Below, in pieces: positions 55,522 to 60,209 of a stretch of DNA of 64,000 nt; within the stretch, counting starts at the first letter, position 1, and every line of letters starts with the position of its first letter. This DNA comes from an uncultured Pseudomonadota bacterium. Lineage in GTDB: Bacteria > Pseudomonadota > Gammaproteobacteria > Burkholderiales > Methylophilaceae. The translations under genes and the position numbers were made by a program. The notes under the pieces are model-generated. The model was not told the DNA's origin and did no database searches. It worked only from the letters and a program-made list of their open reading frames with translations. The stretch is taken from positions 1-64,000 of the forward strand of contig CAILXF010000031.1 of the NCBI GenBank assembly GCA_903838125.1. Reading direction: 5' to 3'.

Positions 55522-56088
55522 TTAATGTGCATTAAGTAGCATATTGATTTGTTGTTGAATAAACTCCGATGGTTTACGTTTAAAGCCACTTTTTGCGAAT
55601 TGCTGCCAGCGACCTGCCACGAAACATACCATTAAGTTCGCCTGTGCCTCTGCATCGCTTTGCGATTCGGATTGTGCTTTTGCAATGCGCAGGCTCTGCT
55701 TTAAGGTTACTTCTATACGATCATAAAGTTGGTTCATGCGTATTTGTAATCTTTCATCCTCGTTAACTAGTGCATCACCAATCAGCACGCGCGTCATACC
55801 AGGATTCTTTTCAGCAAACACTAATAGCATTGTAATGATGCGTTGGACTTGGCGAAGACCGTCAGTTTCTTCGCTGCTAATTTTATTAATTAAGCCAAAA
55901 ATGGTTTCTTCAATAAATACAATCAGGCCTTCAAACATTTGCGCTTTATTAGCAAAATGTCTATACAGCGCAGCTTCACTAACATCCAGTCTAGCGGCAA
56001 GTAAGGCTGTAGTGATTTTCTCACGCTTAGGCGCTTCTAGCATTTTAGCGAGGGTTTCTAAGATCTGTTGCTTACGTTCTCCGGCCAT
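55522..56088 (-). CDS. slmA: Nucleoid occlusion factor SlmA (TetR family)
   Basis: KITTALLAARLDVSEAALYRHFANKAQMFEGLIVFIEE. Confidence 0.94.
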   Translation of the reverse strand: MAGERKQQILETLAKMLEAPKREKITTALLAARLDVSEAALYRHFANKAQMFEGLIVFIEETIFGLINKISSEETDGLRQVQRIITMLLVFAEKNPGMTRVLIGDALVNEDERLQIRMNQLYDRIEVTLKQSLRIAKAQSESQSDAEAQANLMVCFVAGRWQQFAKSGFKRKPSEFIQQQINMLLNAH

Positions 56089-56115
56089 ACTCTTCCCCTT
56101 ACATTGTTGCAGTCA

Positions 56116-56760
56116 TTATAGCTTAAGGTGAGTAAGTGCTAACACTTTGTGTAATCGATAATCAACAAAATTTGGTTTTTTGAGCTCTTTTGATACCCAT
56201 ATGGTTTTCATGCCTAGACGTTTAGCTGTCATCAGCGCTGGCAAATTGTCTTCCAATAGGATGCAGTTTTGGGCCGGCGTCTTAATGGCTTTGAGTAGCA
56301 TTTGAAAACCTCGTACTGAGGGTTTCGCATGAAAGCGCGCGGATTCAACGCTAAATACGAATTCAAAACAATCCCTAATACCTAGTATATCTAGCACGCG
56401 TAAAGCATAGTTACGTGGAGCGTTGGTAAAGATGACTTTGCGCCCAGTTAGATTTTTTAGCATATGGCGAAGCCCGCTAGCTTGCACGACCATTTCGGGT
56501 AGTTGTGGAAAGCTGTGGGTTTGCTCTAAAAAATGATAGGGGCAAAAGTAACTAGGATGCCCACTATGATGACGGATTAAGCCTTTAAGTGTTGCGCCAT
56601 AAATGTGCCAGTAATGTTTGCGTAAACGATGGGCTTCACTTTCAGCTAAATCTAGGGACGCCATCATATATTCAGTCATGATTTGATTCATTACTGGGAA
56701 AATATGGGCTGAAGCATTGTGTAGCGTATCGTCTAAATCAAATATCCAAACTTTAGACAT
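56116..56760 (-). CDS. Pyrimidine 5'-nucleotidase (HAD superfamily)
   Basis: WIFDLDDTLHNASAHIFPVMNQIMTEYM, IFTNAPRNYA. Confidence 0.92.
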   Translation of the reverse strand: MSKVWIFDLDDTLHNASAHIFPVMNQIMTEYMMASLDLAESEAHRLRKHYWHIYGATLKGLIRHHSGHPSYFCPYHFLEQTHSFPQLPEMVVQASGLRHMLKNLTGRKVIFTNAPRNYALRVLDILGIRDCFEFVFSVESARFHAKPSVRGFQMLLKAIKTPAQNCILLEDNLPALMTAKRLGMKTIWVSKELKKPNFVDYRLHKVLALTHLKL

Positions 56761-56776
56761 GTAGTTGTGCTTCAGG

Positions 56777-57694
<918 letters not shown>

Positions 57695-57722: not shown

Positions 57723-59333
57723 TCAAAGTGTTTTGATGAAAACCTTAGATTTGCGTTGAAAGTTATACAGCTTTTGTCTTTCCGCTGGTAGTTTTTCTAC
57801 ATTCTGCTCCATAAAACCACGTTCTATAAACCAGTGCTCGGTATGTGTGGTGAGGCAAAATAATTGTTTAAGACCTCTAGCTTTGGCCTCGTTGGCACAG
57901 AAATAGAACAACCTATCACCACGTCCGGCACCTCTAAATGCCGGGTCTATAGCTAAGCATGCAAATTCAGCAGTTTTTTCGGCAACAAATGGATACAGGG
58001 CAGCGCAACCGATGATGCGGTTCCCGTGCTCCAATACATAAAAATGCTCGATTTCCATTTCTATTCTCTCACGCCCGCGCCTTACTAGCACACCCTCTTC
58101 CTCTAGCGGTTCAATCAGCTTTAAGATGCCGCCGACATCATCTATATCAGCTTGACGCATGCTTTCTAGGCTAAGCTCGGTCACCATGGTGCCTATCCCG
58201 TCTAAGGTAAAGAGCTCTTGAATAATTGCACCGTCAATATGGCGGCTAATTAAATGCGTCCGCGCAACGCCATGTTCGCAGGCACGCACGGCGGCTGGCA
58301 AATAGTAGTTAATGTCTTCTGAGATGTTAATGGCTTGCTCACTTTTGGCCACAGACTCCAAAAGGTTTTTGGCTTTCTCTGCGGTCATTTCACGTAAGAG
58401 CTCACCGCGCAAATTATGCACTCCAGCACTATCCATTAAGAAAATCAACTTATCCGCATCTAGTGCAATGGCTGTGCTGACGGCGGCATCTTCCAAGCTA
58501 AGGTTGAATGCTGCCCCTGTGGGTGAATAGCCCAAAGGTGATAGCAATACCAATTCGCCGTCATCAAGCCGCTTTTGGATGCCTACGGCATCCACTCTTC
58601 TTACTTCACCGGTATGCTGCAAATCAACACCATCACGAATGCCTAGCGGTTTGGCAGTTATGAAGTTGCCACTAGCCACTCTAATGTCAGATCCAGCCAT
58701 GGGAGAATTGACCAACCCCATGGAAAGTAAGGCTTCTATTTCAACCCGAATGGCGCCGTTAGCTTCTTTGACTGCCTCCATCGCTTGGTCATCAGTCACA
58801 CGAAGGCCGTTAACAAATTTAGGGGTGATTTTATCTCGTTTTAAACGCCGCTCAATTTGCGGACGTGCCCCATGCACGAGTACGAGTCTAACTTCTAAGC
58901 TAGCGAGTAAATTAAGGTCATGGGATAATGCTACAAATTGCTTTTCATCGACCACTTCGCCACCAAATGCGATGACAAAAGTACGTCCTCCAAAGGCATG
59001 GATAAACGGGGTAGCTGAGCGAAACCATTGTACAAAGTCTTGCGCCTGAGGTTTGTTGCGAGAGAGGTCTTCACCAGAGGCCCCCGTAGCGAAACCAGTT
59101 CTATGTTCCGTACTGACCAATTCTGCTAATGCAACATCACTTTGGGCATATAGATAAGCGGGTGTGCAGCTTAACGCTTGTGCAATTTTCCGAAGCATCG
59201 CTTCGGAAGCGCCTAATTCACCTCTTTCTATGCGCGACAAATTACCCGCATCAGCACTAATGGCCTGCGCTAGGGTTTGTAATGTAATATTCAGCGACTT
59301 CCGCTGCTTGCGTATGGATAAACCGAGTGACAT
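57723..59333 (-). CDS. argA: N-acetylglutamate synthase (AAK + GNAT) with N-terminal XRE-type HTH domain
   Basis: Uninterrupted 536-aa ORF: residues 1-65 LGLSIRKQRKSLNITLQTLAQAISADAGNLSRIERGELGASEAMLRKIAQAL; then FVQWFRSATPFIHAFGGRTFVIAFGGEVV and LVHGARPQIERRL; C-terminal GNAT IDPAFRGAGRGDRLF. Confidence 0.93.
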   Translation of the reverse strand: MSLGLSIRKQRKSLNITLQTLAQAISADAGNLSRIERGELGASEAMLRKIAQALSCTPAYLYAQSDVALAELVSTEHRTGFATGASGEDLSRNKPQAQDFVQWFRSATPFIHAFGGRTFVIAFGGEVVDEKQFVALSHDLNLLASLEVRLVLVHGARPQIERRLKRDKITPKFVNGLRVTDDQAMEAVKEANGAIRVEIEALLSMGLVNSPMAGSDIRVASGNFITAKPLGIRDGVDLQHTGEVRRVDAVGIQKRLDDGELVLLSPLGYSPTGAAFNLSLEDAAVSTAIALDADKLIFLMDSAGVHNLRGELLREMTAEKAKNLLESVAKSEQAINISEDINYYLPAAVRACEHGVARTHLISRHIDGAIIQELFTLDGIGTMVTELSLESMRQADIDDVGGILKLIEPLEEEGVLVRRGRERIEMEIEHFYVLEHGNRIIGCAALYPFVAEKTAEFACLAIDPAFRGAGRGDRLFYFCANEAKARGLKQLFCLTTHTEHWFIERGFMEQNVEKLPAERQKLYNFQRKSKVFIKTL

Positions 59334-59355: not shown

Positions 59356-59400
59356 ATGTAATATTTACATAATATTAAAACATTTATGTATTTAATGCAA
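59356..59400 (-). promoter_or_regulatory. Putative promoter with two dyad candidate operators upstream of HTH-argA
   Basis: Minus strand TTGCAT-17 bp-TAATAT; dyad ATGTAA-TAT-TTACAT (59356-59370) and ACAT-TT-ATGT (59380-59389) with ATTAAA/TTTAAT flanks. Confidence 0.6.
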
Positions 59401-59438: not shown

Positions 59439-60209
59439 TTAAAAATCACCCCATAAAGTCTGTAACGCAGCAATGGTGGCAAGCGCAGCTGTTTCTGTGC
59501 GCAATACCCGTCCGCCTAGCTGTATGGTTTGAAAGCCATGATGCAAGGATAAAGCGATTTCTTCATCGCTAAGTCCACCTTCGGCGCCGATGAGAAGGTA
59601 AATGTGTCCGCTAGGTTTGTTGAGACTTTTTAACTGTTGAGTGGCATCGGGCGCCAAAGTAATTTTGCAGTCATTGGCATGTAAATTTGTGGCTAGATGC
59701 GCAAATAAATGCACCATATTCAATGGGGCGCTGACCACGGGTACAATACTTCTGCCTGATTGCTCGCAGGCAGAGATGGCAATATTCTGCCAATGTTCTG
59801 TGCGTTTTTCTGCACGTTCAGCTGACAGCTTAACTAAGCTGCGCTGACTGGCGAACGGCTGTATAGCATTGACGCCGAGTTCAACGGCTTTTTGTATGGT
59901 GAAATCCATGCGATCGCCACTGGAAATGGCTTGCAGTAGTGTTATTTTTAGCGGTGATTCATTGAGGACTGCATACGCGTTCGTAATGTTGGCAAATACT
60001 GCATTTTTCTTCACGGCAGTGAGCGTACATTCGTAATTAAAGCCGTCACCATTAAATAAGGTCGCGTTGTCGCCCACCTCAAGCCGTAATGCACGCGTAG
60101 CGTGAGCGGCTGCGCTGTCTGATAGTTGAACTGTGGCGCCCAAAGCTAGTGGGGTGTTGGTATAAAAGCGCAGATTAGCCACAGATTTATCGTCTCTAAA
60201 TGAAAGCAA
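59439..60209 (-). CDS. rsmE: 16S rRNA m3U1498 methyltransferase RsmE
   Basis: RFYTNTPL...HATRALRLEVGD, IGAEGGLSDEEI, LGGRVLRTETA. Confidence 0.96.
   Translation of the reverse strand: MLSFRDDKSVANLRFYTNTPLALGATVQLSDSAAAHATRALRLEVGDNATLFNGDGFNYECTLTAVKKNAVFANITNAYAVLNESPLKITLLQAISSGDRMDFTIQKAVELGVNAIQPFASQRSLVKLSAERAEKRTEHWQNIAISACEQSGRSIVPVVSAPLNMVHLFAHLATNLHANDCKITLAPDATQQLKSLNKPSGHIYLLIGAEGGLSDEEIALSLHHGFQTIQLGGRVLRTETAALATIAALQTLWGDF

Follow-up and report, generated by a model that had tools for sequence, protein, structure and literature searches.

A putative autorepressor built into N-acetylglutamate synthase: paired operators at the HTH-argA promoter of Methylophilaceae

We analysed a stretch of DNA of 64,000 nucleotides (the window) from an uncultured member of the Methylophilaceae, a family whose members feed on methanol and methylamine; the source genome has a size of 1.6 Mb on 61 contigs and is 86% complete. 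The minus strand carries, in this order, rsmE, argA, argB, a gene for what we take to be a HAD-like hydrolase (a label assigned by reading the sequence, not by a search), and slmA (Table 1). ArgA is the first enzyme of arginine synthesis. The argA ORF starts at 59333, and the named relatives of its product, which has 536 residues, belong to Methylotenera and other Methylophilaceae. Sixty-one bp separate argA from argB on the same strand, and argB lies directly downstream of argA in 81 of 103 testable relatives; the two genes are probably co-transcribed. From argB onwards, the presumed hydrolase gene and slmA (nucleoid occlusion factor) follow on the same strand (55522-57661), and argB, the hydrolase gene and slmA are possibly a single operon driven by the argA promoter.

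Table 1. Genes and promoter features around HTH-argA in the window.
Feature	Position	Strand	Remarks
rsmE	59439..60209	-	Upstream neighbour of argA, same strand; NCBIfam
Operator 1 (op1), TTGCATTAAATACAT	59386..59400	-	WTGYN7RCAW; pairs with a second copy at 30 bp here and in most relatives
Spacer dyad, ACATAAATGT (ACAT-AA-ATGT)	59380..59389	-	The ACAT half forms the right arm of op1
-10 element, TAATAT	59372..59377	-	TAnnnT kept at the same place in aligned relatives
Operator 2 (op2), ATGTAAATATTACAT	59356..59370	-	WTGYN7RCAW, family-conserved; covers the expected start site
HTH-argA	57723..59333	-	Xre/Cro-type HTH and N-acetylglutamate synthase; Pfam, NCBIfam
argB, acetylglutamate kinase	56777..57661	-	NCBIfam TIGR00761

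The argA product consists of a helix-turn-helix (HTH) domain (residues 1-76), a flexible linker (~69-101) and the N-acetylglutamate synthase (NAGS) part (~94-536). Pfam HTH_3 matches residues 7-61 with 32.1 bits (gathering score 23), and the NAGS part is complete and of the classical bacterial type (PRK05279, 682 bits against a cut-off of 344; TIGR01890, 570 against 203). The AlphaFold model (mean pLDDT 82.9) has five HTH helices (2-13, 18-24, 29-36, 44-53, 58-76), a linker of ~30 residues with pLDDT <50, and the next helix at 98-114. Its best full-length fold match by TM-score is the arginine-bound NAGS of Neisseria gonorrhoeae (3d2p, TM-score 0.89), while the HTH is weakly similar to ClgR (3f51) and to models of RstR and DicA; from homology to 2r8v and 3d2p we infer that HTH-ArgA is hexameric. 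An HTH precedes NAGS in all 24 Methylophilaceae genera with a readable argA and is diverged in two reduced-genome genera. R11, N31, L32, S33 and E36 are invariant in 37 diverse HTH-ArgA members, the last four of these residues belonging to the recognition helix; in reduced-genome genus g15 the HTH is strongly diverged, and its recognition-helix residues are nonetheless invariant. No HTH-NAGS was found outside the Methylophilaceae among the matches listed for the order and a 370-genome sample of the class, where non-Methylophilaceae alignments start at the NAGS domain.

Upstream of argA, on the minus strand, TTGCAT (59400-59395) is followed after 17 bp by TAATAT (59377-59372) and, one base further, by ATGTAAATATTACAT (59370-59356). 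A sequence-only reading of this region had described the two hexamers and two dyads, all of which are in the sequence as it gave them. One of its dyads, ATGTAA-ATA-TTACAT with perfect 6-bp arms, is op2, and footprinting shows op2 to be conserved among relatives in which the HTH fusion is retained. The other, ACATAAATGT in the spacer, had been proposed as an operator too; among 57 aligned blocks, 4 contain it, and only those of the window and its sister L076 (98% identical) have it at this position; it is probably incidental. The ATTAAA/TTTAAT flanks ascribed to it are real, but their centre is offset by half a base from that of the ACAT..ATGT core, which rules them out as arms of that dyad. 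The conserved upstream site is instead op1, a palindrome where no dyad had been seen, whose left arm is also the -35 element TTGCAT. Op1 and op2 are instances of the same 15-bp palindrome, WTGYN7RCAW, 30 bp apart from centre to centre, with a TAnnnT -10 box between them. The earlier proposal of an autorepressed HTH-argA promoter thus holds in its main idea and in op2, with its second operator mis-drawn. A consensus scan found no canonical sigma-70 promoter upstream of argA, and TTGCAT is a poor -35 element (3/6 match only), so that the promoter call rests on the conservation of TAnnnT in relatives. When 50 distinct blocks are aligned at a spacing of 30 bp, its letters are kept in 94-96% of them (T 47/50, A 47/50, T 48/50), and TAnnnT played no part in the choice of blocks, whereas the essential invariance of TG and CA in both sites is expected since the blocks were chosen by the motif. 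The operator flanks are near background conservation in these blocks.

At a spacing of 29-30 bp, the operator pair scores 16/16 in 54 of 110 relatives, a score that no dinucleotide shuffle reached. Outside the two reduced genera, 72 of 80 HTH-argA upstream regions (90%) score at least 15/16, counts that come from related rows and are not independent tests. One representative each of 19 other genera scores 12-16 (11/19 at 15-16), which indicates that the motif is weaker or has drifted in some genera. The single palindrome was not enriched over its mirror control. For the pair, a mirrored-pattern control is imperfect because reversal alters codon-like letters; AT-matched windows from the same loci served in its place, and 4 of 2118 (0.19%) scored at least 15 and none 16. 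The argA regions of 20 HTH-less outgroup members have best scores of 11-13, with one of 15 in 701 bp, values that are lowered by the outgroup being less AT-rich. A lone short dyad in the AT-rich rsmE-argA gap would be unremarkable; the paired putative operator occurs family-wide in Methylophilaceae.

With spacings of 25-59 bp allowed, 96 best pairs reach a score of 15 or more, and 75 of them fall at 29-32 bp; the others lie mostly at 41-42 and 50-52 bp, intermediate values being rare. The longer spacings are those of the reduced-genome genera g13 and g15. From the steps of ~10-11 bp, about whole helical turns, it seems that the two sites keep to the same face of the helix; independent spacing shifts are few. 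In g15 (L105-L126), op2 is shifted onto or beside the start codon, and some op1 copies look degraded. In the overlapping form (TTGTAnnnnATGCAA), the Met-Gln start of the protein doubles as an operator arm. That reduced genomes had lost the HTH and so offered a natural knock-out, as first suggested for G065, was considered and rejected: the HTH is there in diverged form, and the operators remain. Two Methylopumilus-like loci (L059 and L165) have a possible third operator (TTGCGTTTAACACAA / TTGCGATTAACGCAA) 31 bp upstream of op1.

Of 45 same-genus genomes searched, 35 have the strict 30-bp pair at argA; in the others, argA is unreadable or the pair is off by a base or in spacing, and none of 28 outgroup genomes has it at argA. 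Paired hits away from argA are scattered, GC-rich and coding-like. The window's own genome has no palindrome site beside another arg gene, and motif scans of this genome and its relatives did not find the regulon at other arg genes that had been envisaged earlier. The pair is essentially argA-only, and the switch thus looks local to argA, plus argB where argB follows. The commonest recurrent second single site is at the metX-metW boundary, in the start region of metW and within coding sequence: ATGTAAATATTACAA recurs in the metX-metW overlap (several of L081-L095) and encodes NNVNIT, a conserved coding stretch that mimics the operator, and was rejected as a regulon member. Another palindrome, TTGTAATGATTACAT, is identical in two genomes (L033, at G000:C1:57996-58010, and L100), where it is flanked by genes for a LysR-type regulator and an electron-transfer flavoprotein-like protein and is probably a site for the neighbouring LysR regulator. 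The upstream neighbour rsmE does not belong to the switch: the operators are kept at loci with another neighbour (e.g. L021, L027, L043-L045) and so go with argA. The arginine repressor model (Arg_repressor, PF01316) matches none of 91 relatives including the window's genome, and the DNA-binding domain of the argA product is HTH_3, not PF01316.

Taken together, we consider it very probable that ArgA acts both as enzyme and as repressor of its own transcription, through its N-terminal Xre-type HTH on the paired argA operators. Association and geometry make a strong case that the fused HTH would bind these operators. Xre-type HTH dimers would occupy the two palindromes flanking the argA promoter core, and with op1 covering the -35 element and op2 the start site, the bound state would shut out RNA polymerase. 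As the ~30-bp spacing places the sites on nearly the same helical face, two HTH dimers may bind together, either from one NAGS hexamer or from two adjacent hexamers; we infer that HTH-ArgA would repress in a cooperative manner. HTH residues 29 and 40 covary with operator position 5: in 78 of 80 rows, either A29 and L40 go with TTGTA-type half-sites or S/T29 and Q40 with TTGC(G/T)-type half-sites, and these rows represent 1-2 independent changes. These are too few for the covariation to prove which protein binds, and it was rejected as such proof.

The arginine-site motif E-(L/I)-(F/M)-(T/S)-x-x-G-x-G-T is present as ELFTLDGIGT (373-382), and the key Lys and Glu are K295 and E373, which align with K201 and E270 of gonococcal NAGS. 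In the latter enzyme, arginine shifts the N-terminal helix and the ring becomes ~10 A wider (PMC4490483). The arginine site of HTH-ArgA sits at the join with the N-terminal helix of NAGS, a helix that comes directly after the HTH linker. With the arginine-site residues intact the repressor is probably tuned by arginine, and the position of the site makes a circuit in which arginine acts on both enzyme and HTH the likeliest one: arginine would inhibit the enzyme and alter the HTH geometry, turning argA(B) transcription off when arginine is plentiful. We lean slightly towards such arginine dependence of repression. A fuller version, which we offer tentatively and hold a little below even, is that a single polypeptide specific to Methylophilaceae, assembled as the NAGS hexamer, senses arginine, is feedback-inhibited as an enzyme and represses by arginine-dependent DNA binding, with the widening of the ring by arginine setting the fit of two HTH dimers to operators whole turns apart.

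Autogenous repression could also do without arginine sensing, ArgA merely limiting its own amount; this is a sub-version of the autorepressor reading, compatible with its main claim, and we regard it as a serious possibility on the doubtful side. Many Xre proteins autoregulate without a ligand, and the flexible linker of ~30 residues with its low pLDDT could uncouple the HTH from arginine-driven movement. The intact arginine-site residues and the sensing helix (98-114) that comes straight after the linker speak against it.

The operators could be real and bound by a separate Xre-type regulator, with the HTH of ArgA tethering the enzyme or serving oligomerisation. Xre-type palindromes of similar kind are widespread. 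Such a regulator would nevertheless have to act at a paired operator that is essentially confined to the HTH-encoding gene, is missing at argA genes without the HTH and outlasts changes of upstream neighbour. The invariance of N31, L32, S33 and E36 in the recognition helix and the joint shift of operator letters and HTH residues on the tree, though in few events, also argue for the fused HTH as binder, and we judge the separate regulator improbable. HTH-ArgA as an activator or anti-silencer is very unlikely, given the polymerase-excluding geometry of a -35 element inside op1 and of op2 over the expected start site. That the dyads are chance palindromes of an AT-rich promoter region, as the gap is and as ACATAAATGT exemplifies, is hardly credible for op1 and op2, since it is refuted by the dinucleotide shuffles and AT-matched windows and by TG and CA letters that are invariant amid unconserved flanks.

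Methylophilaceae and surrounding families are without ArgR, and the literature searched seems to say nothing on how they control arginine synthesis; nor did it yield a description of the HTH-NAGS fusion or of the way Methylophilaceae regulate arginine, which is weak evidence as the search covered open-licence papers only. If the autorepressor reading is true, the first committed enzyme of arginine synthesis became its own repressor by fusion, so that a single arginine site would serve allosteric feedback as well as transcriptional control. The family would then offer a compact, testable case of an enzyme turned regulator, with natural spacing variants of ~30, 41 and 51 bp, and annotation of such argA genes should include a transcription factor role.

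Among known systems, the Xre/Cro autorepressors ClgR, DicA and RstR share the HTH_3 fold, and paired palindromic operators over the promoter are typical of this group; in HTH-ArgA, the HTH is fused to a metabolic enzyme and the sole target appears to be its own operon. In enteric bacteria, PutA uses a DNA-binding domain fused to the enzyme to repress its own gene, but this is a ribbon-helix-helix domain on a catabolic enzyme that acts at intergenic put operators. ArgR/AhrC is a hexameric arginine sensor that controls arginine synthesis genes, as proposed here for HTH-ArgA, yet it is a separate protein with a winged HTH that uses ARG boxes at many target genes rather than one. The core ArgR regulon of gammaproteobacteria includes argA (PMC5343134). 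The classical hexameric NAGS of N. gonorrhoeae (2r8v/3d2p) is homologous over residues 92-533 and has the same arginine motif; it is without an HTH, and a review (PMC4490483) treats it purely as an enzyme. The group II biotin protein ligases (BirA) are biosynthetic enzymes with an N-terminal HTH and repress genes of their own pathway (PMC4016012). In BirA, as proposed for HTH-ArgA, the enzyme domain receives the small-molecule signal; the HTH is winged and not of Xre type, the target is the bio operon and the enzyme fold is another, and no homology is claimed. Self-repressing enzymes are already known from BirA and PutA, and what is new here is the enzyme, the type of HTH and the target.
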